42,470 bases of DNA from Bacteroidota bacterium. Lineage in GTDB: Bacteria > Bacteroidota > Ignavibacteria > SZUA-365. The first letter of the stretch is position 1. The number at the start of each line of letters is the position of its first letter. Below, piece by piece: positions 1 through 13,813 of this stretch. The stretch covers positions 1 through 42,470 of the forward strand of contig JACZJN010000058.1 of the NCBI GenBank assembly GCA_014860565.1, in the 5' to 3' direction. A model generated the notes under the pieces. That model worked only from the letters and a program-made list of their open reading frames with translations. It did no database searches and had not been told where the DNA came from. The position numbers and the translations under genes were made by a program.

Positions 1-574
1 GGATGTAGAAGGAGACCTGCAACGGACCATCGCCGTTAGTGACGGAGGCGTTGACGAGACGCTGGCGCTTGCAGTGGCGATCGAGTATGTCGATGTAGGC
101 GGGATGGGCGTCGTCACCGGCGTCGTAACTGAACTGCAGAAAGTATTCTTTCCGCTGCGGCGCGAGCAAAGGCACGCGCGCAAGCAGGTACACGACGCCG
201 CCGATGGCCACGGTGCCGACGAGGGCGATGGCCTGGGCACCGGCGCCGGCGGCGAGTCCGGCCGCGAGCGAGAAGAAAATGAAGACGATGTCGAGCGTCT
301 CCTTGACGGCGGTGCGGAATCGGATGATGGACATCGCCCCCACGAGGCCGAACGCCCGCGCGAGACTGTTGCCGATGATCATGATCACCATCGCGGTGAT
401 GAGCGTGAGCAACACCATGGAACTGAGGAAGGAAGGCGGATAACCCGGCGTGCTCGTGGTCTTTTTGTACAGCCATGCGATGAACATGCCGCAGAGGAAG
501 GCGACGAGCAGGTTGACGAGAATGTCTCCCACGGACATCGGGAGCAGATCCAGGTTTTGCAGATCAGTGAGCAT
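1..574 (-). CDS. DUF4956 family membrane protein (3' end outside window)
   Basis: The frame is open from an ATG at 574 to the left edge of the window, so 191 codons are visible and the C-terminus is missing. Hydrophobic segments lie at about residues 12-34, 48-66, 86-105 and 107-127. Between the second and third is the signature GNSLARAFGLVGAMSIIRFR, followed by TAVKETLDI, which I recognise as the core of DUF4956. The visible part continues into a soluble C-terminal section. The biochemical role of the family is unknown; it often travels with VTC-domain and CotH genes, as here. The start overlaps the end of the VTC gene by 11 bases, which suggests translational coupling in the six-gene cluster. 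Family call is confident; function is not. Confidence 0.88.
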   Translation of the reverse strand, partial: MLTDLQNLDLLPMSVGDILVNLLVAFLCGMFIAWLYKKTTSTPGYPPSFLSSMVLLTLITAMVIMIIGNSLARAFGLVGAMSIIRFRTAVKETLDIVFIFFSLAAGLAAGAGAQAIALVGTVAIGGVVYLLARVPLLAPQRKEYFLQFSYDAGDDAHPAYIDILDRHCKRQRLVNASVTNGDGPLQVSFYI

Positions 575-1286
575 GAGCGTCCAGGCTGAGTGTGTACTTC
601 GATAACGCGAGGCGGCGCAGCTGATACTGCTCGAGCTGCGCGCGCAGCCAGCCCGGCACGCCGCGGGTGAACTTTACCTCGAGTATGCAGTGCTGACGCA
701 TGACGGGTAAAAGCGCGCCGTCGGAATACAAGGCGTCGGGAGACGACGTGCGCGCGGCGCGCAGATGCTTGTCGATGGTTACCCGCAAATCGCCGAATCC
801 GTTGACGGTGTAGGCCTCACGGTCGTAGACGATCAGCGCCACCGGACGCAGCGCTTTCCGATCGTAGTCGCGGAAAAACCGTTCTGCGTTCGCGGGATGT
901 ATACCGTCGCCGTGCTTTTTCTCTACGTGCCGATCAAAGTCCCGGTCGGCGATCAGCGTCCCTATGGCGTCGACGGCCAGACCGCAGCGGTATTTGGTCA
1001 GATAAGCGCCGACCTTTTCCTTGATCTCCAGAAATGCGCGCGCTCCTGCGGATGCGTCGTTGTAGGCGCGGATGCGGTACTTGCGGCGAACGCGGACGCC
1101 TTCCACTTTCTCCCGGTATGCGGCAAAGCGCGGCGTGTCGAGATACACCGAACGCACGGTGTATTCCAGGTCGGGCGACATTTTCGCATACTTGTCGGGC
1201 TGCATGTGCAGCAGCAGGCTGCGGCGCAGGGCCGGAATGCGGTCCAGGGGAAGCAGGTACTTGTATTCGAGCTTGGGATACGGCAT
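564..1286 (-). CDS. VTC-domain (polyphosphate polymerase-like) protein
   Basis: This 240-residue protein consists of a single VTC/CYTH-type tunnel domain. Visible signature elements are EYKYLLP near the start, SVYLDT, the basic strand VRRKYRIRAY, the acidic strand FLEIKEK, and the late strand ILEVKFTRG. These match the pattern of Lys/Arg and Glu residues lining the active-site tunnel in the yeast Vtc4 catalytic domain. The family makes inorganic polyphosphate from ATP in yeast; the bacterial stand-alone versions are mostly uncharacterised, so the substrate here is inference. I chose the ATG at 1286 because it lies 2 bases after the HlyD-like stop and starts directly at the domain; the open frame upstream only overlaps that gene. 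There is no signal peptide, so it is probably cytoplasmic, next to the membrane partner DUF4956. Confidence 0.88.
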   Translation of the reverse strand: MPYPKLEYKYLLPLDRIPALRRSLLLHMQPDKYAKMSPDLEYTVRSVYLDTPRFAAYREKVEGVRVRRKYRIRAYNDASAGARAFLEIKEKVGAYLTKYRCGLAVDAIGTLIADRDFDRHVEKKHGDGIHPANAERFFRDYDRKALRPVALIVYDREAYTVNGFGDLRVTIDKHLRAARTSSPDALYSDGALLPVMRQHCILEVKFTRGVPGWLRAQLEQYQLRRLALSKYTLSLDAHAH

Positions 1287-1288
1287 GG

Positions 1289-2371
1289 CTACATCGTTAT
1301 GCGGGACCACAGGTGAAGCAGATACCCGGAGACGCTGAGCGGCGGGGTCTCGACCCGGCAGCGTGCGATGAGTCCCGGGCGTAAATCCTCGGCTCCGTCG
1401 CGAATTTCTGCGGAAACGACGCACACGGGACGTCCCTTCACGTACTGCACCGCGCGGTCGATGCGGAGGAGTATGGCAGTGCCCGAAAGTCCCGTGAGCG
1501 GGATGTCGAATGCGATGCGGTCTCCCTCGCGCAGTCCCGTGCAATCGCCGATGTCCACCGGCAGCATCAGCACGAGTGCGGATTGGTCCTGTACCGCCAT
1601 CAGCGTGTCGGCGGCCTGCGGATGCAGCAGCACGCCGCTCAACGGCGCGATGTGCGTGAAGCGGTTCATGCGCAGCCGCACGGCGGCGATTTCATCCTCC
1701 AGCGCCGCGGCCTGGGCTTCCATCTGGCGCACGTCTTCCGGCTTGCGTCCGCTGGTGGCGGCGGCGAGCTGGGCCTCGGCCACGGCGACGCCGGCGCGCA
1801 GCACTTCGAGCCGGTCGCGCGATAACTCGAATTCCTCATCCGATAGTATTTTTTTCTGATGCGGTTCGGCCTGACGCGCATGCAGATGCTGCTGCTCGTC
1901 GAAAGCGGCCCGCGCCTGTGCGAGCGCCCCGTGCGACTGCTGTACGACCGCGGGTTTGTCTCCGCTGCGGGCCGATGCCTCGGCGGCATGCGCAACGTCG
2001 AGCGCGCCTTCGAGCGCCGCGAGCTGCTGCGCGAGTTCGGGCGAGGTCACCCAGCCGATCGTGTCGCCTTCCTGCACCGAGGCGGCGGTGAGCACCGCGG
2101 GCGAGAGCACGAAATGCATGGCGTCGCCGCGCTCGGGCTGCGTGACGGAATACTGCTCCACCACGCCCGTGCCGTTGCTGCGCACGAGCGATGTCAGCTG
2201 TCCGTTGTCCGTCCGGAGCAGCACCCATTCACGTGCGGGCAGCAGACGTCCGAAGACGGTGGCCGACATGGGAATGCGGATCGGGAGCAGCGCGAGCACA
2301 AGCGCAAGTACCGCGAGGGCGCCGATGGCATAGAGGATGCGGTGACGCGAGATATGGGGAAGGGTTGTCAT
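1289..2371 (-). CDS. HlyD-family periplasmic adaptor-like protein
   Basis: A 360-residue protein with one N-terminal membrane anchor (about residues 11-31) and a short cytoplasmic tail. A beta region follows, then a long helical stretch (about 120-240, rich in Ala, Glu, Gln and Arg, likely coiled-coil hairpin) and a second beta region containing FTHIAPLSGVLLHP, typical of the barrel-sandwich half of membrane fusion proteins. It ends with PGLIARCRVETPPLSVSGYL. Such proteins bridge an inner-membrane transporter to an outer-membrane channel, but no transporter ATPase, permease or TolC-like gene is adjacent. The ATG at 2371 shares one base with the preceding stop (TGATG). In this cluster it may hand material made at the membrane to the surface enzymes; that is inference. 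Confidence 0.8.
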   Translation of the reverse strand: MTTLPHISRHRILYAIGALAVLALVLALLPIRIPMSATVFGRLLPAREWVLLRTDNGQLTSLVRSNGTGVVEQYSVTQPERGDAMHFVLSPAVLTAASVQEGDTIGWVTSPELAQQLAALEGALDVAHAAEASARSGDKPAVVQQSHGALAQARAAFDEQQHLHARQAEPHQKKILSDEEFELSRDRLEVLRAGVAVAEAQLAAATSGRKPEDVRQMEAQAAALEDEIAAVRLRMNRFTHIAPLSGVLLHPQAADTLMAVQDQSALVLMLPVDIGDCTGLREGDRIAFDIPLTGLSGTAILLRIDRAVQYVKGRPVCVVSAEIRDGAEDLRPGLIARCRVETPPLSVSGYLLHLWSRITM

Positions 2372-3963
2372 CAGTAACGGATCATTTTTCCATCCGCGCA
2401 CGCGCTGCCGCTGCGGATGCGGTAATAATAGATGCCCGGAGATACGGCGCGTCCCGCGGCGTCGCGGCCGTCCCACCACAACTGCCCCGTGCCCGGCGCG
2501 AACTGCTCGCGCGAGAGGCGGCGCACTTCCCGGCCGAGGGCGTCGTGCAGCACGAGTTCCACCGTACCAGCGGCGGGTGTCGTGTAGGATATCATCGTCG
2601 ACGAGGGAAAGGGATTCGGCGCGTTCCACGCCGTGAGCACGGGTGCGTTGGGCAGCCCGGCACCCGCGTCCGCGGTGTGCAGGGCCGCAAGTCCGCTGTA
2701 GTCCGCCGGGTAACGCAGCGACCGCGCGACTTCCTTGCTGTAATTGTATTCCCACACCATGGTGCCGTCGGGCGCCACTTCGCGGAAGTCTCCTTCTGTC
2801 GCCTCGGTCAGATAGGTGTTGCCGTTGGACAGCCGCTGATTGCCGCCGAGATGCGCCGAGAAAAAGCTGTTTCCGGCGCTGTAGGACCAGGCGGGTACGG
2901 CCGGACCAAACGCCTGTCCGGCGTCGTGCACGAACTTCCCTTCCCCGTCGAGCGGAGGTGCGATTTCCACGATCACCGAGGCGCGTGCGCGCGCGGCGTT
3001 GTTGAAGGCGAGAATGTTTCCCGCGCCGGGATATCCCGCAGGCACCCACGCCGAACAGTGTACGACGTCGAAGACCACCGGACCCGGCGCGCCGTAATTC
3101 GCGGGGTTGCCCCAGCGGTAGAGGATGTCGCCGCCCCTGCCGTGCCGTCCGCCCGTATGTCCGGCAGCCTCGGCGGTGGTGGTGCTGTGGTCGATGACGT
3201 AAATCTCGTTCATGAAATGGGAACTGATCACGATCAGGTCAGCTTCGGGATTGTAACTGACACCGTTGATGTGCAGCCAGTCGCCCCCGCCCGGCATCTG
3301 CGCGTTCGAGATCAGATTGACATTGAACAGCTCAGGGTGCTCTGCGATCACACCGTAGTCCGGCTTCGAGGGATCGCGGTCCTGCACGAGATGATCCCAT
3401 GCGTGCCATTCCCAGACGATCGTGCCGGTGCCTCCTGCGGGCGCCACTTCCACGATGTGATCGGGCCACATGACCTGGGCGTTCTGCCGCCCCATGGCCG
3501 TCGCCTCGGCGGCGGACTTCGCCTCCCAGGCGATCAGAAGCACGTTGCCGTTGGGCATCGGCTCGATGTCATGATGCGCGATCCAGGTCGGCCCGGAATA
3601 CATAAACGACCACACCACCCTTCCGCTCCAGTCGATTTTCTCGATGAGCCCGCTGCTCGCCGCGCCGCGCATCTGCGCGTTGGCGACGGAACCCGGACGC
3701 AGCAGCAACCCGTCGGGCAGAAGATACGTCGCATACCCGCCGGGGGAACTGTGCGTCCAGGTGTGCACGGTCTTCCCCTGCATGTCGATCAAGTACGTCG
3801 TGCGTCCGTTGGTCGGACTGAACAGCGTGTATCCGTCGAGCGGCTGCTGGGCCCGTGCAACAGTGCCCGCGAGAAGGATGAACAGCAGCGCCGTGATCAT
3901 CGCCTGGAGCGGCGCGCTCCGGCGCGCCGGCCTGCGTCGGGGGGATACGTTTTTCCCCTTCAT
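2371..3963 (-). CDS. Arylsulfotransferase (ASST)-like protein with T9SS sorting domain
   Basis: A 530-residue exported protein. The basic N-terminus and hydrophobic stretch to about residue 38 (ending ARAQ) form a signal peptide. The body is a six-bladed-propeller type of the ASST family, with repeated histidine-centred motifs: HHDIEPMPNGN (130-140), WEWHAWDH (184-191), DWLHING (228-234), SSHFMNEIY (247-255) and VVHCSAW (301-307). Family members move sulfate between phenolic compounds through a histidine. I cannot show that the catalytic histidine is the same one, so the substrate is open. Residues from about 445 form a T9SS C-terminal domain (NAPNPFPSST, DALGREVRRLS, GIYYYRI), so the protein should cross the outer membrane and be surface-attached or released. 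The ATG overlaps the CotH stop (ATGA). Confidence 0.85.
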   Translation of the reverse strand: MKGKNVSPRRRPARRSAPLQAMITALLFILLAGTVARAQQPLDGYTLFSPTNGRTTYLIDMQGKTVHTWTHSSPGGYATYLLPDGLLLRPGSVANAQMRGAASSGLIEKIDWSGRVVWSFMYSGPTWIAHHDIEPMPNGNVLLIAWEAKSAAEATAMGRQNAQVMWPDHIVEVAPAGGTGTIVWEWHAWDHLVQDRDPSKPDYGVIAEHPELFNVNLISNAQMPGGGDWLHINGVSYNPEADLIVISSHFMNEIYVIDHSTTTAEAAGHTGGRHGRGGDILYRWGNPANYGAPGPVVFDVVHCSAWVPAGYPGAGNILAFNNAARARASVIVEIAPPLDGEGKFVHDAGQAFGPAVPAWSYSAGNSFFSAHLGGNQRLSNGNTYLTEATEGDFREVAPDGTMVWEYNYSKEVARSLRYPADYSGLAALHTADAGAGLPNAPVLTAWNAPNPFPSSTMISYTTPAAGTVELVLHDALGREVRRLSREQFAPGTGQLWWDGRDAAGRAVSPGIYYYRIRSGSACADGKMIRY

Positions 3964-5510
3964 CGCAACACCGTGAATTTTCCCGCGGCGCGCTGCACGA
4001 CGCCGGAGGCGGTGGTCAGGATCAACTGGTAGAAATGCACGCCTGCGTCGAGATCCTGTCCGGCGATCTGGGTCTCGTATGTTCCGGGCGCCTGCGCGCC
4101 GATCGCGCTGCGGCGCAGTTCGCGGCCGAGCGCGTCAAAGAGGACGAAGGTGACTTCCCCGTTGGTGGGGACGACGAATGCGACGCTCGTCTGCGCTGTG
4201 ACGGGATTGGGATAATTCCACGCGGTGAGGAGCGCGCTCTCCGGCACGGCGTCCGTCGACATGCTGGCGTAGTTCAGCAGCTGCGTGCGCAGGTTCTGAT
4301 TGCGCAGCTGCGAAAAACGCGTCAAACCCGGCACCGGCATGTTGGGACCCACCATCACGTCGCGATCCATGTTGTCGAGAAACTGCTGGTAGGAATACAG
4401 CTTGTTCTGATCGGCCTGCACCCACGGATCGATCAGCGGCTTCCAGCGCGCGATCTGCGCGGCAATGCTGTCTTCGTGGGCCGGACCCGCGACCAGACTC
4501 GCGATCGCGCGGAGATAGCGCGCGCGCAGAAGGTCGTCGCCCAGGATGCGGCGGTTGAGCGGACGGCGGTTCAAATTGCTGATGTTGAGCACGTCCTGTG
4601 TAAACACGTTCCAGTTGTTGGAATAGGAGCCGAAGCCTTCGTTGATGTCCCAGGGAATGAAGGTGAACTGCCCGGTGCTCTCGTCGTCGTACACGTAGAA
4701 GTTGCGTCCCGAACCGGTATAGCTGTCGAAGTTCGACATCACCATGTTGAACGCCAGCAGCTGGATGGCGCTTTCGAACTCGATCCATGCGCCGAGCTGA
4801 TCGCGGAATTGCGCGTCCGGAACGCTGCTGAGCCGGTTGATCATGGTGATGAAGCGCGTCCAGTCGTCGGCTTTCTCATTCGTCTTCAGCTCATATTCCG
4901 CGCGATAGCTGTCGGCCGCATCGCCGCGGTACTCGAGCGATGCGCCATTGTCGGCGGCCTTGTAGAGGTTGAAGCCGTTGTCGGTGAAATGACGCTTGAG
5001 GAATTTCTTGTCCACCTGCTCGACCATGGTGAACAGTCCGAGCAGATTGCCGTCCACCTTGATGGCGGCGAAAGCCGTGCGCGGCGCATGCATGCGCGTG
5101 GCGATCATGTCGTAGCAGATTTTCTCGCGCAGAAAAGTCGGATCCTTCGTGGCGTTGCTGAAGTTCAGCGTCTCCACGTCATAGCATTCCTGCTTGCTGC
5201 GGTATTTGTCGAAGGCGAACTTGAGCGGCTTCTTCGGCGTGTTGCGCGACATGTTGTACGAGGAGTTTCCCTTGTAGCGCACGCCGACGCTGTCGAAGAC
5301 CAGCCCCTCGTACTCGATGCGCGCGGGAATGTACTCCTCGCCGTTCTCGTACCAGTACTTGAGCGAGTCTTCCCAGTCCGGGTAGTAAAACGTGATGTTG
5401 AACTCGTGCACGTAGCTGTCATCGAAGAGCAGTGCGGTGGAGTCGATATCCTGCGCGCGCAGCGCGGCACCGCAGAGGAAAAGAGGGAGGAGAAGCAGAG
5501 CGGTTTTCAT
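3960..5510 (-). CDS. CotH kinase family protein with T9SS sorting domain
   Basis: A 516-residue secreted protein with a clear signal peptide (residues 1-19, ending LRAQ). The CotH atypical kinase fold is recognisable from VRYKGNSSYN (77-86), the lysine-rich KKPLKFAFDKY, the strand DGNLLGLFTMVEQVDKKFLK (153-172), RNFYVYDD (269-276) and the metal-site motif IPWDINEGFG (285-294). CotH of Bacillus spores phosphorylates coat proteins; extracellular homologues are mostly unstudied. Residues from about 430 form a T9SS sorting domain (WNYPNPVTAQTS, DALGREL, GVHFYQL). The gene sits 18 bases after the SUMF1-fold lipoprotein and overlaps the ASST gene by 4 bases. A surface-exposed kinase would need an extracellular phosphate donor, which makes its linkage to a VTC-domain protein notable. 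The family call is firm and the activity inferred. Confidence 0.9.
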   Translation of the reverse strand: MKTALLLLPLFLCGAALRAQDIDSTALLFDDSYVHEFNITFYYPDWEDSLKYWYENGEEYIPARIEYEGLVFDSVGVRYKGNSSYNMSRNTPKKPLKFAFDKYRSKQECYDVETLNFSNATKDPTFLREKICYDMIATRMHAPRTAFAAIKVDGNLLGLFTMVEQVDKKFLKRHFTDNGFNLYKAADNGASLEYRGDAADSYRAEYELKTNEKADDWTRFITMINRLSSVPDAQFRDQLGAWIEFESAIQLLAFNMVMSNFDSYTGSGRNFYVYDDESTGQFTFIPWDINEGFGSYSNNWNVFTQDVLNISNLNRRPLNRRILGDDLLRARYLRAIASLVAGPAHEDSIAAQIARWKPLIDPWVQADQNKLYSYQQFLDNMDRDVMVGPNMPVPGLTRFSQLRNQNLRTQLLNYASMSTDAVPESALLTAWNYPNPVTAQTSVAFVVPTNGEVTFVLFDALGRELRRSAIGAQAPGTYETQIAGQDLDAGVHFYQLILTTASGVVQRAAGKFTVLR

Positions 5511-5528
5511 TCGTCCGGGATCCTTCGT

Positions 5529-6485
5529 TTACTGTGCCGTGCGCACGGCACGGAATCCGATGAAGTTGTACAGATAGTCGGGAGTGCTGAATTCGCGGTT
5601 CGTCGCGCGCAGATGCGGCGCCTCGTTGCCCCAGCTGCCGCCGCGCAGCGTATGCCAGTCGCCGCTTGCCGGTCCTTCGGGATCCGCGATCACGCCCGTG
5701 CCGTAATAGGTCGCGTCGTACCAGTCATGACACCACTCCCATGCGTTGCCGACCATATCGTAGAGGCCGAAGGCGTTTGCGGTGCGCGAAGCGGCCGCGG
5801 CAAAGCCGAAGCGCGCGTCGTCAGAACCGAAATTCCAGGAATTCCCGGCCCAGACGGCGTGGGCGCCGATCTCGGTGCTGTCGCCGGAGGAAAGCGGATA
5901 GCCCGCGGCGTTCTTTCCCCAGAAAAAATCGAAATTCACGCCGCCGCGGCAGGCATATTCCCACTCCGCCTCGGTCGGAAGGCGATACCCGGATTTGCTG
6001 AGATCCGCCGTCACCCCTTCGAGCGCGCAGCCGTTGCCCGGCGTACCGAGAATGCTTGCGTACGCATACACGGGCGCCAGACCTTCGGCCTTGCTGCGTG
6101 CGTTGCAGTAGAGCACGGCATCGCCCCATTCGACCAGATACGCGGGGATACGCGATCCGACACCGTAGGGCTCGGTCCAGTCGGGAGTGGAATACGCGGC
6201 ATATTCGGCGCGCATGATGCGCTCGTACTCGCCCTGCGTCACCTCGGTGGTATCAATCCAGTAGCTGCGCGAAAAACTCACCGCGCGTACCGGCTGTTCG
6301 TCGGCGTTGCCGTCGGCCGACCCCATCTGGAAGGACTTCCCTTTCGCCTCCACCAGCACCATGCCGCCGCTTCGCTGCAGCGTGGGAACGGGGTTGGGAT
6401 CGTTCCCGTTGCCGTCGCTCGAATCACAGGACGAAAATGCGGCCACGAGGGCGAACGCTGCGATGATGCCGTGGATGGATCGCAT
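5529..6485 (-). CDS. SUMF1/FGE-fold lipoprotein, catalytic cysteines absent
   Basis: A 318-residue protein starting at the ATG at 6485, which has a GGAG ribosome site 8 bases upstream. The N-terminus has a lipoprotein signal with Cys at about residue 21. The rest is the formylglycine-generating-enzyme (SUMF1) fold: MVLVEAKGKSFQMGSADG, DTTEVTQGEYERIM, RLPTEAEWEYACRGG, FGLYDMVGNAWEWCHDWY, LRGGSWGNEAPHLRATNR and a final FIGFRAV. True sulfatase-activating enzymes have a cysteine pair just after the RGGS motif; here that segment has none, so it is probably not an active FGE. Related cysteine-less lipoproteins (GldJ/GldK type) are structural parts of gliding/T9SS machinery, but assignment to them is not secure. 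It is the first gene of the six-gene minus-strand cluster. Confidence 0.85.
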   Translation of the reverse strand: MRSIHGIIAAFALVAAFSSCDSSDGNGNDPNPVPTLQRSGGMVLVEAKGKSFQMGSADGNADEQPVRAVSFSRSYWIDTTEVTQGEYERIMRAEYAAYSTPDWTEPYGVGSRIPAYLVEWGDAVLYCNARSKAEGLAPVYAYASILGTPGNGCALEGVTADLSKSGYRLPTEAEWEYACRGGVNFDFFWGKNAAGYPLSSGDSTEIGAHAVWAGNSWNFGSDDARFGFAAAASRTANAFGLYDMVGNAWEWCHDWYDATYYGTGVIADPEGPASGDWHTLRGGSWGNEAPHLRATNREFSTPDYLYNFIGFRAVRTAQ

Positions 6486-6780
6486 GGACAGACTCCGGAA
6501 GCGGTGTGGTACGGTATAGGGCGGAAAATGATGGCGCCGGGAAAGAGCTCGAACGCCGGCACGGGAAGTTTGACATTCCAAAAACGAAAAGGTTGCATAA
6601 GATCGACATTCACCTGCGAAAAACCGAACATGCGCCCGTGGGACCTGAAGCGCGCCGACGTGACCTGACGCGAATGGGACCTTCGAAAACCGAACGATTG
6701 TCCAGTTGAGTCAACACGGAGTATAGGATATCTTTCTGCACTACCACGTCCCCCATTGCACCCGTGCGGAGGTACTCGCC
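6486..6780. other. Divergent intergenic region between surface cluster and propeller gene
   Basis: These 295 bases separate two divergent transcription units and hold no convincing gene. On the plus side a weak promoter-like pair is visible: TTGTCC at 6698-6703 and TATAGG at 6722-6727 with an 18-base spacer, followed by TATCTTTC at 6729-6736, close to the TAnnTTTG element of Bacteroidota. A GGAGG at 6768-6772 is the ribosome site for the gene at 6781. I see no clear promoter for the minus-strand cluster. A perfect TTGACA at 6571-6576 lacks a matching -10 at the right distance. Confidence 0.4.
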
Positions 6781-9700
6781 ATGAACATGCGAAGCACGTT
6801 ATCACCGATTCTCATATCAATTTTCCTCCTTCTTTCCACTCCAATCGTCTCCCACGGGCAGACGCTGCAATGGGGACCAACGAATGGTCCGTACGGGTCC
6901 GTGTGCCAGGACCTGGTGATGACGAGTTCCGGCACTTACCTCTTGAACGACGAGCGGAACGGGGTGTGGCGATCGACGGACGCCGGCATGCACTGGCAGC
7001 GTTCCAGTACCGGGCTCTCGATCTACGGCGTGTACGCCCTGGCCATAGCGGCCGACGGCAACGTCCTCGCCGCCACGTATTACGGCGTCAATCGCTCGAC
7101 GGATGACGGAAAAAGCTGGGTGAGTTCCAATACCGGGATTACGCAACAGAATCTGGAGGATATTCTCGCGCTGTCCGACGGCACGGTCCTCGCCACGGCA
7201 TGGGGAGGCGGCCTCTTTCGCAGCACGAATAACGGACAGCTGTGGACGGAGGTGACGCCCGGTCCGGCGGAACTCCGCATCTACTGTCTTCGCAAAACAG
7301 CCGCCGATCATGTCTTTGCGGGCAGCTTCGGCGCTGGTGTTTTCCGCTCCACCGACAAGGGGCTGACCTGGACCGCGCTGTCACTCGGCGGGTACGTCTA
7401 TGATATGGCACAGACCCCCGATGGCATGCTCCATGCTCTCAGGTCCGATGTCGGGCTTTTTCATTCCTCCGACAACGGAGACACCTGGTATAAATCAGAT
7501 GACGGTCTTCCCTACTTCAGAGGCTACGGCTTTGCATCGCGGTCCGCGGGAGAATTGTTTTTTGGCTGCAGCATACCACAGGGCATGTACCGAAGTACGG
7601 ATGCCGGTGCGACGTGGGCGGTGTACAGCGACGGATTTTCCAACGCCATCACGCAGGGAATGTTTCGCGTGGCGAACGGGGATCTCCTTGCGATGACCAA
7701 CGGCGATGGAGTCTACTGTCTGCCGAAGGACAGCAGTGTGTGGTCCGCATGGAATGAAGGAATGCAGGGGACATGGATACGCGCCGTCGCAGTGGCACCG
7801 GACGGATCCATCGCTGCAGGAGGATATGGCGGCGTGTCGATCAGCCGGGATGAGGGTGCTAGCTGGACCAATGCCGGCAGCGGCGTGAAAAGCAGCCTCG
7901 TATACGACCTCCTCTGGATCAATCAGACGTTGTTGGCCGCGGGATATCCCGGAGGCGTCTGCCGGAGCACGGACTTCGGCGTCCATTGGATCCCGATCAA
8001 TTCCGGACAAACCTCCGACCGGCCGACCTGTCTTTCTCTCGACGCCAGCGGGACCTTGTTCTGCGGCACTGACGGCAAGGGTGTTTTTTCTTCCAGCGAC
8101 AACGGTGATACATGGGTCGCCATCAACGACGGACTCACATCGCTCCGCGTGTATGCGCTTTGCGAGGACGCCACCGCGATCTATACTGCCACGGATGACG
8201 GAGTATTCAAGTCGACGAATCAGGGGGCGAACTGGTTTCTCGCATCCTCCGGACTTCCCACGAGTCATGGCAACGCCCTTCTGTCAGTAAATAATCTGCT
8301 CTTCGTCAGCGTGGGCGGGGGCGTTTACCGCTCAAGCGACGGCGGTACGAACTGGAGCCGTTCCGGATTGAATCAGCTTCCCTCCCGCGCCTTCGAAACA
8401 CTCAAGGCCAGCAGCAGCGGATTGATTTTCGCCGGAGGGGATGTCGGGATTTATGCCACGTCCGATGGCGGAGAAAACTGGCAGTACGTCGGCGACGGCC
8501 TTCCAAACAATACGACCTATGATATAGCTTTTGATAGCGCGGGGAAATTATATGCTGCCATCTACGGGAATGGCGTATTCCGTTCTCCTCCGCTGAACAG
8601 TGGACCCGAAGTCACCATCACCACATCCCCGGCGGGTCGGAGCTTCACGGTCGACGGGATGGCCTACACGACGACGCAGACCTTCAACTGGCAGCCGGGA
8701 ACGACGCATGAAATCGGAACGGAATGGACGCAATACGGTCAAACCGGGATCCGCTATGTCTACAGCGGCTGGACCGACGGCGGTGATGTCTCGCACATGA
8801 TTACCGCGCCGATGGGCGCGCAGACGATCACCGCGAATTTCCGCACCGAATATCAGCTGCTGGTGGCGACCGACGGAGCAGGTACGGTCACGCCGCAGTC
8901 AGGATGGTACAATCCCGGGGCGCAGGCGGAATTGCTCGCGACCCCGGAAGCGGGACAAACTTTCCTCCGCTGGGAAGGGACAGGCTCCGGTTCCTATACG
9001 GGCACGAATAACCCGGCAACAGTGACGCTGAACAACCCTGTGACCCAAACCGCCTACTTCTCTGGAAACGCGGCTGGACGGGAAATCACCGTAACCACCG
9101 CACCGTCCGGACGGCGCGTCACGGTGGACGGACAGGATTACTCGAATCGCACGACCTTCACATGGAATGTGGGATCCTCCCATCAGATCAGCACGGCGAG
9201 TCCGCAGCAGGGTTCGCCCGGCATCCGCTATGTGTGGAATTCCTGGAGCAACGCGCAGCCGATGACACACACATACGTCGTGGCCGCCGGTCCGGCAGTG
9301 GAACTCACCGCGAATTTCGATATGGAGTACAGTCTCACGATGACGGCCGGGACGGGAGGAACCGTAAGCCCGGGCACGTCCTGGCACGGCACTGGGACCC
9401 GTGTACAGATTCGCGCTACTCCGCAGGGGGGGTATGAATTCGACCGATGGGTGGGTTCGGGTGTCAGCTCGTATTCGGGCACTGATAATCCCGCGACGGT
9501 GACGATCACGAATGCGATAACGGAAAATGCGGTTTTCCGTCAGGTAACCGATGTAAGGGATGATCCGTCAATGCCACGGACAATGCAATTGGAACAGAAC
9601 GCTCCGAATCCCTGCGCGTCATTCACGGTGTTTTCCTTCGTCCTGCCCCGTGCGCAGGCGGTCTCACTCGTGGTGACCGACCTTCTCGGCCGGGAATGTG

Positions 9701-9843
9701 CACGCGTATGCGACAGGCGCACCTTCCCCGCGGGTGCGCAGCGCATCGGATTCGATGCGTCCGTACTGCGACCGGGCGTGTATCTGTATCGGTTGGAGTC
9801 GGCGGGGGAAACGAGATCAGGCAGAATGATCGTCATTCGATAA
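6781..9843 (+). CDS. Secreted Asp-box beta-propeller protein with InlB-like repeats and T9SS domain
   Basis: A 1020-residue secreted protein with a strong GGAGG ribosome site 8 bases before the ATG and a signal peptide (about 1-26). Residues 30-600 contain about twelve Asp-box motifs of the form S-x-D-x-G-x-x-W (for example RSTDAGATW, RSTDKGLTW, RSSDGGTNW). These mark sialidase- or Ycf48-like beta-propeller blades; no sialidase catalytic set was recognised. Residues 608-765 and 766-920 are two copies of one module beginning VTITTSPAGR and ITVTTAPSGR and ending in a strand resembling divergent InlB B-repeats (GSYTGTNNPATVTL, SSYSGTDNPATVTI). Residues from about 930 form a T9SS sorting domain (EQNAPNPCASF, DLLGRECARV, GVYLYRL). 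Likely a surface binding or adhesion protein; the ligand is unknown. The gene converges on the minus-strand TSP3 gene, leaving 16 bases between stops. Confidence 0.85.
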   Translation: MNMRSTLSPILISIFLLLSTPIVSHGQTLQWGPTNGPYGSVCQDLVMTSSGTYLLNDERNGVWRSTDAGMHWQRSSTGLSIYGVYALAIAADGNVLAATYYGVNRSTDDGKSWVSSNTGITQQNLEDILALSDGTVLATAWGGGLFRSTNNGQLWTEVTPGPAELRIYCLRKTAADHVFAGSFGAGVFRSTDKGLTWTALSLGGYVYDMAQTPDGMLHALRSDVGLFHSSDNGDTWYKSDDGLPYFRGYGFASRSAGELFFGCSIPQGMYRSTDAGATWAVYSDGFSNAITQGMFRVANGDLLAMTNGDGVYCLPKDSSVWSAWNEGMQGTWIRAVAVAPDGSIAAGGYGGVSISRDEGASWTNAGSGVKSSLVYDLLWINQTLLAAGYPGGVCRSTDFGVHWIPINSGQTSDRPTCLSLDASGTLFCGTDGKGVFSSSDNGDTWVAINDGLTSLRVYALCEDATAIYTATDDGVFKSTNQGANWFLASSGLPTSHGNALLSVNNLLFVSVGGGVYRSSDGGTNWSRSGLNQLPSRAFETLKASSSGLIFAGGDVGIYATSDGGENWQYVGDGLPNNTTYDIAFDSAGKLYAAIYGNGVFRSPPLNSGPEVTITTSPAGRSFTVDGMAYTTTQTFNWQPGTTHEIGTEWTQYGQTGIRYVYSGWTDGGDVSHMITAPMGAQTITANFRTEYQLLVATDGAGTVTPQSGWYNPGAQAELLATPEAGQTFLRWEGTGSGSYTGTNNPATVTLNNPVTQTAYFSGNAAGREITVTTAPSGRRVTVDGQDYSNRTTFTWNVGSSHQISTASPQQGSPGIRYVWNSWSNAQPMTHTYVVAAGPAVELTANFDMEYSLTMTAGTGGTVSPGTSWHGTGTRVQIRATPQGGYEFDRWVGSGVSSYSGTDNPATVTITNAITENAVFRQVTDVRDDPSMPRTMQLEQNAPNPCASFTVFSFVLPRAQAVSLVVTDLLGRECARVCDRRTFPAGAQRIGFDASVLRPGVYLYRLESAGETRSGRMIVIR

Positions 9844-9859
9844 CGGCGAATGGACTTCC

Positions 9860-11320
9860 TCAGCGTTCTTTGACGTCCGGACACCCGTCGTTGTCCTGGT
9901 AACCGTTCCTGTTTTCAGGAAGCCGCGGGCACCTGTCTTCCTTGTCGTTGAAGCCGTCACCGTCGGTATCGGCCTTCTTCGGATCAGTGCCGACGATGCG
10001 CAGTTCTTCGTAATCGGTGAGTCCGTCACCGTCGGTGTCGGGATTGAAGGGATCGGTGCCTTCGATCGAGCGTTCCTCGAAGTCGGTCAGCCCGTCTTTG
10101 TCGCTGTCCGCGGAGGCAGCTTCCGTTTTGCCGACGAACACCTCGTCGTAATCGCCGATGCCGTCGCCGTCGCTGTCGGGAAGCAGAGGGTCGGTGCCGT
10201 ACTTGAGGTATTCGTCGCCGTCGCTGAGGCCGTCGCCGTCGGTATCGACGCGGTTGGGATTGGTACCCAGCTGCAGCTCGCGTCCGTCGGGAAGCTGATC
10301 GCCGTCGCTGTCCACCTTGTGAGGATCGGTGTTGAATCGCTGTATCTCTTCCGCATCCCGGATTCCGTCCCCATCGGTATCGAGCGTATCGGGGCGCGTG
10401 TGGTATTTCACCGCCTCTTCATAGTCGGTGAGGCCGTCGTCATCCGAGTCCATCTTGCGGGGGTCGGAATGGAGATTGGTGACTTCATGCCAATCGGTGA
10501 GCAGGTCGCCGTCGGTGTCGACGTCGTAGGGATTCGTGCCGAGTTCTTCCTCCTCGTCGTTGCTCAGCCCGTCGCCGTCGATATCGTTGTCCGGGAAAAG
10601 AAAGAACTTCACGCCCGCGGTCAGGGAGAAATACAGATCGTTTGCGGTTTCCGCGGCGTTGGGATTGCGGCCCACGCCCGATTCGACTGCCCAGGTGTCG
10701 CGGACGTAATCGGACGCGAATGCATCGAGTCCGCCCGTCGAGGTGAGGTTTGCACGAATCTCGAGGTTGAAGGCCATTGTGCGCCCCATAAGGATATCGA
10801 TGCCGAGTCCACCGGGAAAGACCCACGTCTCCTGTTCCGGACTCGCCGGATAATAGCGGGTTACCCGTGCACTGTAATCTTCGGGTGTGTACCAGAGTTT
10901 TCCCGCACCGCCATAGAGATAGGGATTGATGAATTCCCCCGGCAGAAGGTCGAGAAAGACCAGCGCGGTGAACGCTGTAAAATCCGTGCCTCGATCCACA
11001 CCGTTTAATGCGGGATCGTTACCGAACTGAATCTCATACGAAGTGCGGGTATTGCGGCGCCAACGGCGGTTGTAGTACAGCTTCCCCTTCTCACCCTGGA
11101 GTCCGATGCGCAGATAATTGGCCAGCGCGAACGAAGCCTGGGCCCAGTACATCTCGCCGACCGACTGATCGAGGAACTCACCGTTATACTTCGAGATGCC
11201 CCCGCCCACGGTCACTGTCAGGCGTCCGTCCGGATAGCGCGGACGTCCGGTATACGGGACCTCCTGCGCCAACGCAGTACCTGCGAGCAAAAAGAGCGAT
11301 ATCAGTGCCAATAATTTCAT
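9860..11320 (-). CDS. Outer-membrane barrel protein with thrombospondin type 3 repeats, no OmpA domain
   Basis: A 486-residue protein with a signal peptide (1-18, ending LAQ). Residues 30-240 have alternating strands typical of an eight-stranded outer-membrane barrel ([37 protein letters not shown]). They are followed by ten calcium-binding thrombospondin type 3 repeats of about 23 residues (DxDxDGDGLxDxEE...GTDP). It stops straight after DGCPDVKER, where homologues continue into a peptidoglycan-binding OmpA domain. It is clearly paralogous to the gene just upstream (11368-13758), with matching barrel strands and the same number of TSP3 repeats, and is separated from it by 47 bases. Whether it lost the OmpA domain or never had one cannot be told from one genome. 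Confidence 0.88.
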
Positions 11321-11367
11321 CTATACCATTCGCAATTCATGCTTCCAGATTCGAAATTCATCGTTCA

Positions 11368-13758
11368 TCATCGTTCGATCACGTTATACGGCACTCTGTC
11401 GCCGAGCCGGATGATGTAGATTTCCACGCGGCGATTGAACGCGCGGCCGATATCGTTGCTGTTGTCCATCAGCGGCCGCGTTTCTCCGAAGCCACGGGCG
11501 CGGATGCGCGAGGGCGAAATACCTGCCTGCACGAAGAAATTCTTCACGGCAAGTGCTCGGCGCATGGACAGATTCTCATTGTAGGCATCAGTGCCTTCCG
11601 CGTCGGTGTGGCCCCGAATCTCAACAATCATCTGCGGATAGGCCTTGAACACCGCCACCTTCTCCATCAGGTCGGCCGTGTATTCACGCCGGATGATATC
11701 CATGTCAAATTCGAAATGGACATCGGTGAGGATGAATGTCTTGTCTTCCGCGACGTTTTCCAGATTGAATTCTGGAAGGGGGCTGACCAGATTCTCCGCT
11801 TCGAAATCGTAGGCGATCGTACGCCGCGTCGTGTCGTAATTCGACCGCATTGGCATGATATGCTGCACCGCGCGGGGAATGTAGCCCCAGTAGCGCGCAA
11901 GGAGTTGCTGCTCGGCAGTTCCGAAGAGAGAGTCCCGCTCAATGCGCCACATTCGGCCATCGCCGGCGCTGACGCCGTGTCCGCGTCCTGTCGAACCCGC
12001 AAAGCCTGCATCGCCTGAACCGGCGATCGCTGCATAATTCACCTCGCCACGCCCGTCGCCGGTACCCACGCCCTGTCCGCGTCCATTACGCCCGTCGCCT
12101 GTCACCTCGCCACTGTTCACCCCGCCACGCCCGTCGCCGGTACCCACGCCCTGTCCGCGTCCATTACGTCCGTCACCCGTGACCTCGCCGCTGTTGACCC
12201 CACCCCGGCCGTCGCCCGTACCCACGCCCTGTCCGCGTCCGCGCGAGGGATCGGAACCGTTATTGGAGGCCAAAGGAGTGTCGAGATCGATGCCGATGCC
12301 ATCGGGACATCCGTCATCGTCGTTGATACCGTTGTAGATTTCGGGAACGAGCGGACATTGATCCACGCCGTCCCAGATGCCATCGCTGTCGGTGTCGCGA
12401 TCGAGCGGGTTGGTATGCGTTTCGACGATTTCCTGATCGTCGCGCAACCCGTCGCCGTCGGTATCGGCATTGTTGGGATTTGTGCGATGGAACGCGATTT
12501 CTTCGTAGTCGTTGAGATCATCTCCGTCGGAATCACCCTGCAGCGGATTGGTGCGGTAGGTCACGACTTCGTTGTAATCGAACACACCGTCGCCGTCCGT
12601 ATCGGCCTTCACGGGATTGGTACCGTACACGCGCACTTCCGCATAATCGCTCAGGCCGTCGAAATCGGTGTCGACCAAAGTGGGATCGGTACCGAGGCCG
12701 AGTTCCTCCTTGTCATTGAGTCCGTCCTCGTCAGTGTCGAATACGAGGGGATTCGTACCATATCGGTAGATTTCCTCGAAATCGGTGAGACCGTCGGTGT
12801 CCGTGTCCTCCAGTGAAGGACGCGTGCGGAAGACGGTGACTTCGTAATAATCCCCGAGACGATCCTGATCGGAGTCCCATTTCAGAGGGTGGGAATTGAA
12901 CTGCTCGGTCTCCTCGAAATCGGAGAGGCCGTCGCCGTCCGAATCGGGTTCGTACACGTCGCTGCCGAGCCCTTCTTCCTCGCGGTTGGGCAGCAGGTCG
13001 CCGTCGTAATCGTCATTCCGGAAAAGATAGACACGCAGACCAAGCGTGGCGGTGAGCAGATTGTCGTTTGCCTCATTGGGCTGGTAGGCGCGCGACCCGC
13101 CGCTTTTGATATAGTCGATGGTGAGAAGCTTCTCGTCGTAGGCGTCGAGATCGCCCTTGAAAATGAGCGTGTAGCGCAGTTCGGCGCTGAGCGCGATCGA
13201 CGGCGTGAAGAAGACGTCGAGCCCGAGGCCGAAAGGTACGGACACCGCGCCAGGCATATCGGCTTTCGGACGCGTGTGGACCTGATCTCCGCCATGATCC
13301 TCCGCGCTGTAGACGGTCACACCCGCCCCGATCAGCATCGAGATGTCGAAGATCGACATCTGCAGCGGACGATACTGCATCAACAGATGGAAATTGCTGA
13401 ATTCGGTTTCGCGGGTCCCATCCTCCGGACCGAACTGGAAGTCGTACAGAACGGGGTCCACTGCGGAGCGCTGCCGCTGGTACGAGAATTTTCCGTATTC
13501 CACCCCGAGCCCGATGGAAAGGAACGTCCGGACGGAATACATGCCGCTGAGCGACAGAATGCGTGAGTCGTCAACGGGTGAGAATTCTCCGCTATAGCGG
13601 TTCAATCCCCCGGCAATGCGGAACGCAAGCAAACCCTGGGAGTAACGCGTGCGGTATTCTTCATCGAGCATGCCGACATCCTGCTGCGCCCTCAGAGGGA
13701 TCGCGAGCAGTACCGACAGAACGGTGAGGAAGAAAATTGTGCGGATCAATATATGCAT
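11368..13758 (-). CDS. Outer-membrane barrel - TSP3 repeat - OmpA family protein
   Basis: A 796-residue protein, taking the ATG at 13758 directly before a good signal peptide (a TTG nine codons upstream is less likely). Order of parts: signal peptide ending LRAQ; barrel region (about 25-235); ten TSP3 calcium-binding repeats (about 240-480); a Gly-rich linker with three copies of a 26-residue unit beginning GRGQGVGTGDGRG; and a C-terminal OmpA domain (VHFEFDMD, IRGHTDAEGTDAYNENLS, RARGFGETRP, NRRVEIYI) that should bind peptidoglycan. It probably ties the outer membrane to the wall through a long, calcium-stiffened stalk. It precedes its shorter paralogue on the same strand, and a promoter-like pair lies upstream at 13814-13841. 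Confidence 0.9.
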   Translation of the reverse strand: MHILIRTIFFLTVLSVLLAIPLRAQQDVGMLDEEYRTRYSQGLLAFRIAGGLNRYSGEFSPVDDSRILSLSGMYSVRTFLSIGLGVEYGKFSYQRQRSAVDPVLYDFQFGPEDGTRETEFSNFHLLMQYRPLQMSIFDISMLIGAGVTVYSAEDHGGDQVHTRPKADMPGAVSVPFGLGLDVFFTPSIALSAELRYTLIFKGDLDAYDEKLLTIDYIKSGGSRAYQPNEANDNLLTATLGLRVYLFRNDDYDGDLLPNREEEGLGSDVYEPDSDGDGLSDFEETEQFNSHPLKWDSDQDRLGDYYEVTVFRTRPSLEDTDTDGLTDFEEIYRYGTNPLVFDTDEDGLNDKEELGLGTDPTLVDTDFDGLSDYAEVRVYGTNPVKADTDGDGVFDYNEVVTYRTNPLQGDSDGDDLNDYEEIAFHRTNPNNADTDGDGLRDDQEIVETHTNPLDRDTDSDGIWDGVDQCPLVPEIYNGINDDDGCPDGIGIDLDTPLASNNGSDPSRGRGQGVGTGDGRGGVNSGEVTGDGRNGRGQGVGTGDGRGGVNSGEVTGDGRNGRGQGVGTGDGRGEVNYAAIAGSGDAGFAGSTGRGHGVSAGDGRMWRIERDSLFGTAEQQLLARYWGYIPRAVQHIMPMRSNYDTTRRTIAYDFEAENLVSPLPEFNLENVAEDKTFILTDVHFEFDMDIIRREYTADLMEKVAVFKAYPQMIVEIRGHTDAEGTDAYNENLSMRRALAVKNFFVQAGISPSRIRARGFGETRPLMDNSNDIGRAFNRRVEIYIIRLGDRVPYNVIER
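12007..12240. repeat. Three 78-bp tandem repeats inside the OmpA-family gene
   Basis: On the minus strand, units span 12240-12163, 12162-12085 and 12084-12007. Each encodes 26 residues starting GRGQGVGTGDGRG; the first two read on as GVNSGEVTGDGRN, and the third diverges after GEVN. The first two differ only at scattered, mostly silent positions. The period is a multiple of three, so unit gain or loss keeps the frame. Confidence 0.92.
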
Positions 13759-13813
13759 GCGCAGACGCGAAAATCGCGGGGGCAACCGTTCTTGAAACTA
13801 CTGAAACAGATTA

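Follow-up and report, generated by a model that had tools for sequence, protein, structure and literature searches.

Six closely packed genes at one end of the window (the whole 42,470-nucleotide stretch of DNA analysed here) appear, with a probability that we put at about 0.5, to form an operon whose core serves envelope-spanning synthesis and export of polyphosphate, joined by secreted enzymes of the cell surface (Table 1). The VTC-domain protein would make polyphosphate from ATP at the cytoplasmic side, and the DUF4956 protein, in the inner membrane, would receive the growing chain, taking the role of the membrane part of yeast VTC. The HlyD-like adaptor would link DUF4956 to an outer-membrane channel of TolC type, whose gene would lie elsewhere in the genome, and polyphosphate would thereby reach the cell surface. 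There a CotH kinase and an ASST-like transferase, both predicted cargo of the type IX system (T9SS), would act as surface partners, with a probable lipoprotein of lectin fold (SUMF1) as the third secreted partner; together the three may build up or modify a surface layer that is phosphorylated and possibly sulfated, CotH drawing its phosphate from exported polyphosphate or from a co-exported nucleotide. That polyphosphate is the product, that DUF4956 is the conduit and that transport runs in this direction we infer from gene content. The weakest of these steps is the donor proposed for CotH; a polymer would be an appealing source, given that a kinase outside the cell has no pool of ATP to draw on.

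Table 1. The six genes of the minus-strand cluster, from the first gene onward, with positions in the window.
Gene product	Coordinates	Strand	Family match and remarks
SUMF1/FGE-fold probable lipoprotein	5529..6485	-	PF03781 (FGE-sulfatase) 6e-48; first gene of cluster
CotH-type kinase with T9SS type A sorting domain	3960..5510	-	PF08757 1.9e-57; TIGR04183 26.9 bits
ASST-like beta-propeller with C-terminal FlgD-like/T9SS domain	2371..3963	-	PF05935 (Arylsulfotrans) 1.8e-19
HlyD-like periplasmic adaptor, N-terminal hydrophobic segment	1289..2371	-	family profile matches MacA/AcrA/EmrA
VTC polyphosphate-polymerase domain protein	564..1286	-	PF09359 5.3e-39
DUF4956 membrane protein, C-terminus missing	2..574	-	PF16316 4e-14

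The ORF coordinates and family matches bear out the six minus-strand genes and their order as given in the first-pass annotation, and its description of the packing (overlaps, or gaps of at most 18 bases) is exact, the measured spacings ranging from -11 to +18 bases (+18, -4, -1, +2 and -11, in gene order from SUMF1 to DUF4956). The first base of the window is also base 1 of its contig (C120, from a draft genome of 4.75 Mb); the DUF4956 gene is therefore cut by the assembly, and encodes 191 amino acids as against about 224 for the full protein. Of the relatives that bear a name, the closest are Bacteroidetes/Ignavibacteria MAGs, SZUA-365 among them.

Of the 197 genomes of the class that were searched for VTC, 37 have it. 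The six-gene order of the window is repeated in four relatives (G022, G012, G032 and G042, at loci L032, L034, L035 and L036), three of which belong to other genera, and the arrangement is thus not due to chance. All six genes are present but rearranged in G081 (L039), G061, G101 and G088 show part of the set where a contig ends, G052 has the HlyD-VTC-DUF4956 triplet only, and VTC is absent from two members of the family, G068 and G001. A lack of recurrence in related genomes had been named beforehand as grounds for abandoning the six-gene set, and the set was found again. What is conserved as a unit, however, is less the whole set than HlyD-VTC-DUF4956. Among 92 VTC loci, made up of the class set, a phylum-wide set and loci selected through ASST, DUF4956 lies alongside VTC in 89; 59 loci have a HlyD-type adaptor and 23 a DUF2490 gene, whereas no locus has both and 10 have neither, an exclusivity with a Fisher p of 3e-14 in which phylogeny is not taken into account. 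The switch between the two occurs even inside one family (f41), where G225 has HlyD and G316 and G319 have DUF2490, and in the loci that lack HlyD the DUF2490 gene adjoins the VTC-DUF4956 pair in 23 of 33; pairs with neither are seen in L181-L183 and L196. Across 395 genomes, strong matches to the HlyD subfamily abut VTC in 29 of 30 loci, the sole exception (G322) reading HlyD-DUF4956-TolC in a genome in which no VTC was found.

A Zixiibacteriota locus (L076) reads HlyD-VTC-DUF4956-ASST-ASST-SUMF1-CotH, so that the six families travel together outside the phylum of the window; the genes of Bacteroidia follow one another as ASST-T9SS protein-CotH-one or two small genes-VTC-DUF4956-DUF2490. ASST lies near VTC in only one of the 39 loci of the phylum-wide set (L176-L215). 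At L063:8601-9649 the HlyD gene falls into two separate ORFs, by a frameshift or an assembly error, and this otherwise intact triplet may therefore be broken.

The VTC gene product scores 134.6 bits against a curated Pfam cut-off of 23, and among the yeast proteins its family profile fits Vtc4 best (6.6e-22), ahead of Vtc2 and Vtc3. All nine of the Vtc4 tunnel residues compared (K200, R264, R266, E279, K281, R361, E426, K428 and K458) are kept, and the protein is predicted to polymerise phosphate from ATP. Its 240 amino acids hold the VTC domain alone, with no SPX and no fused membrane domain, which places it outside the eukaryotic VTC complex yet still in the VTC domain family. In yeast, the polymer is translocated as it is made, by way of a basic channel in the membrane (PMC9911596), and this coupling, together with the retained tunnel residues, supports the export reading. 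The genome of the window also encodes PPK1, so VTC is not the only candidate maker of polyphosphate, and the notion that it is the sole one in this cell was rejected.

Two arginines of DUF4956, R85 and R87 within GLVGAMSIIRFRT, are invariant; the parallel with the basic channel of yeast VTC is suggestive, no more. A predicted model of the L070 ortholog has five helices and an ACT-like domain; this C-terminal domain matches solved folds weakly, the membrane part gave no fold match among solved structures, and DUF4956 is a weak relative of MgtC. The cluster thus resembles the yeast complex (Vtc1/3/4) in a Vtc4-type active site and in the pairing of a polymerase with a membrane part that bears conserved basic residues, but here the parts are separate genes, SPX is missing, the membrane parts are not detectably related, and the setting is the plasma membrane of a diderm with a periplasmic adaptor. 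In twelve Bacteroidota loci (L216-L222 and L225-L229) DUF4956 is followed by a HlyD-like gene and then by a conserved protein of about 412 amino acids, with VTC not adjoining; comparison of the last with TolC gave an hhalign probability of 5-10%. Such loci suggest that DUF4956-HlyD is a general module, and since the pair occurs without VTC, the conduit may carry something other than polyphosphate.

The HlyD-like gene of the window has no Pfam adaptor match and hits PRK03598 at 1.6e-12, below the cut-off of that family, while its own family profile matches the structures of MacA, AcrA and EmrA. Adaptors such as MacA and AcrA dock to TolC through the RLS motif, RxxxLxxxxxxS (PMC3391258), which is present in 46 of 54 adaptors of the family as against about 20% in shuffled sequence. 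The motif of the window adaptor reads RQAEPHQKKILS, with Pro in place of Leu, and this substitution counts against the export reading, as the L190A change in HlyD abolished crosslinking to TolC. No TolC gene adjoins the window cluster, although eight OEP genes occur elsewhere in the genome. TolC does lie within the operon in L053 and L210; in the former (G066) the genes CotH-DUF4956-HlyD-TolC-VTC-lamin-tail protein share one strand and, from DUF4956 onward, are separated by at most 2 bases or overlap. Where HlyD is replaced by DUF2490, the model of the latter (pLDDT 83) shows an N-terminal helical segment and then 11 antiparallel strands, its best-fitting matches are porins (e.g. NanC, TM about 0.56), and an outer-membrane beta-barrel is predicted. 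The operons that contain TolC, the RLS-motif adaptors and the replacement of HlyD by a modelled barrel all support export; in bacteria that have an outer membrane, VTC-DUF4956 comes with outer-envelope parts, as an exporter would require. The resemblance to tripartite efflux and type I secretion (AcrA, MacA or HlyD with TolC; PMC3391258) lies in the adaptor, whose family mostly carries the RLS motif, and in the TolC-containing operons of L053 and L210. No ABC, RND or MFS inner-membrane pump was seen in the cluster or beside the adaptor, and as DUF4956 is proposed to stand in place of the pump, the cluster would work like such a system rather than be one. An operon-like run in L223 (G152, 3898-10464) comprises LPG_synthase_TM, a HAD hydrolase, myo-inositol-1-phosphate synthase, DUF4956, Porin_O_P, CotH and a second HAD hydrolase, a DUF4956-CotH arrangement that is free of VTC and has a homologue of phosphate-selective porins; it, too, speaks for export.

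Turning to the secreted proteins, CotH scores 195.6 bits against a Pfam cut-off of 23.8. The CotH of Bacillus subtilis is a spore-coat kinase that needs D228 and D251 for activity (PMC7821199); on alignment to 5jd9 these residues correspond to D262 and D288 of the window protein, and among 15 relatives the second is invariant and the first nearly so. With both catalytic aspartates kept, the window CotH is predicted to be a protein kinase; it shares the kinase domain with the spore-coat enzyme but adds a sorting domain, and is predicted to be secreted by the T9SS, beyond the ATP pool. Its sorting domain and that of the ASST (26.9 and 26.0 bits) exceed the NCBI cut-off of 23 and the genome encodes the T9SS sortase PorU (987 bits), so that the first-pass annotation of CotH and ASST as T9SS-exported enzymes is supported, most catalytic residues being kept. 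The genome has at least 150 matches to T9SS sorting domains, and the tails are for this reason weak evidence of a shared function.

The catalytic set of E. coli AssT includes H252, H356, N358, R374 and the nucleophile H436 (PMC13426309). Hand and profile alignments place H131, H231, N233 and H302 of the window ASST at H252, H356, N358 and H436, the last correspondence requiring a one-residue indel, and these three histidines and the asparagine are invariant in all 98 sequences compared. The position of Arg374 is occupied by H249 in the window, and by His in 60 and Arg in 21 of the 98. Searches of the PDB with the protein or its profile returned essentially matches to the FlgD/T9SS tail only. 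The window ASST may transfer sulfate; other T9SS propellers (SBBP, Reg_prop and YCF48) can join or replace ASST beside CotH, and the ASST may therefore serve binding besides catalysis, but the invariance of the active-site residues weakens the notion of a purely structural propeller. A survey from the side of ASST covered 80 named loci, and in the tree of 98 sequences one clade of 34 has 32 members that adjoin CotH and/or VTC, as against four of the other 64. This clade spans Bacteroidota, Ignavibacteriota, Zixiibacteriota, Calditrichota and Electryoneota, and the loci of WOR-3/Stahlbacteria form a separate lineage that is likewise linked. The protein is thus like the PAPS-independent AssT of E. 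coli CFT073 (PMC13426309) in its propeller and in the three active-site histidines and asparagine, and unlike it in the change of Arg374 to His, in T9SS export and in belonging to a distinct CotH-linked subfamily. At L076:2386-6388, in a Zixiibacteriota MAG, two ASST genes of this subfamily stand in tandem.

The SUMF1-fold protein, whose closest solved chain is Treponema TvpA, recurs beside ASST/CotH or VTC in L073, L075, L076 and L078. On alignment to human FGE the catalytic Cys pair is absent, and the protein is thus not an active FGE; a role as sulfatase activator was dismissed on this ground. In sum the earlier proposal, a surface phosphorylation and sulfation system in which a membrane-made phosphate compound is carried outward, finds partial support in these results. 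Recurrence and the logic of export speak strongly for it, and outward carriage is backed genetically by operons in which TolC is present, or in which a barrel predicted for the outer membrane takes the place of the adaptor. Its joint phosphorylation and sulfation fares less well, as SUMF1 is not an FGE, ASST is a regional addition in which one active-site residue differs, and T9SS tails are common.

The association of CotH, VTC and DUF4956 in other bacteria, also pointed out beforehand, is well founded: CotH-PPP(VTC)-DUF4956 is packed together as an accessory set of Gram-positive Pel clusters in streptococci and clostridia (PMC7112168), and SIR_1592-1594 of Streptococcus intermedius comprise the same three families (PMC12345266). 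In that species mutants of the CotH gene and of the gene for the four-helix/ACT membrane protein aggregated less and had altered Pel levels (PMC12345266). The authors of that study (mBio 2025) state that they did not find the synteny of CotH, VTC and DUF4956 outside Pel loci (PMC12345266); contrary to their statement, it is common there in Bacteroidota and their relatives, with CotH neighbours called by a profile built on CotH domains. The window cluster and the Gram-positive set share the same three packed families, and the deletions tie the CotH and DUF4956-type genes to one surface trait, but no HlyD, TolC, DUF2490, ASST or T9SS is reported from the latter. Neither the envelope-spanning form nor the ASST subfamily was found described in the open-access papers searched.

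Among the other readings, the one that survives best, though we consider it somewhat unlikely, is that two separate systems share one operon, namely a HlyD-VTC-DUF4956 unit for a phosphate polymer and a T9SS-displayed set of CotH, ASST and SUMF1 that makes or decorates a surface layer with another donor and is biochemically uncoupled from the first. CotH was not seen nearby in 19 of 39 VTC loci of the first set and in 26 of 39 of the second, some of them owing to short contigs, and this proportion of about one half, along with the missing TolC neighbour in the window, also weakens the export reading. The exchange of ASST for other propellers beside CotH, the presence of Lcl_C with SUMF1 in L073, and the abundance of T9SS tails point the same way. 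Against such a separation, CotH is packed with VTC and DUF4956 in streptococci and clostridia as well, where no HlyD is reported (PMC7112168), and deletion of the CotH gene or of the DUF4956 gene in S. intermedius leads to the same kind of defect (PMC12345266). The Gram-positive association with Pel and the aggregation phenotype speak for a rather improbable third reading, in which the cluster modifies an exported polysaccharide as a Pel-like accessory set, CotH adding phosphate and ASST sulfate, with VTC and DUF4956 supplying or regulating the phosphate; a polysaccharide-deacetylase gene adjoins VTC, CotH and DUF4956 in L204. No gene for Pel or other polysaccharide synthesis was present, however, in the scanned flanks of L034-L036 or among the scanned window ORFs adjoining the cluster, where the contig ends at base 1, and identification of the cluster as a Pel locus was rejected for these flanks. 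Least credible is that VTC and DUF4956 handle intracellular phosphate, by storage or by sensing through the ACT-like domain, with HlyD a mere scaffold and no export, for despite this domain, the weak kinship to MgtC and the few VTC-DUF4956 pairs that lack HlyD and DUF2490, these two genes are repeatedly found beside TolC itself, adaptors of the TolC-docking kind or barrels predicted for the outer membrane.

A wider and more doubtful claim is that DUF4956 represents a novel kind of inner-membrane component in tripartite export of TolC type, that in these bacteria it exports inorganic polyphosphate while VTC is making it, and that the polymer energises the phosphorylation of surface proteins by secreted CotH kinases; the DUF4956 exporter would then be the diderm counterpart of the eukaryotic VTC complex. 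To our knowledge this is the first functional hypothesis for DUF4956, a family seldom named in the open literature searched. Since the conserved operon brings together a polymerase, a secreted kinase, a small membrane protein and either a TolC adaptor or a predicted outer-membrane barrel, one series of deletions could probe both the route of polyphosphate to bacterial surfaces and the source of phosphate for kinases beyond the ATP pool.

The divergent neighbour of the cluster in the window (6781-9843, plus strand) encodes a BNR/sortilin-type propeller of 1020 amino acids with B-repeats and a T9SS tail, and two genes at 9860-13785 (minus strand) carry bacterial TSP3 repeats, one of them ending in an OmpA domain. 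At L034:7037-8785, a gene that converges on the operon from its DUF4956 side encodes a multihaem cytochrome c; this protein bears a T9SS sorting domain and may be a cargo that the T9SS places at the surface for electron transfer.
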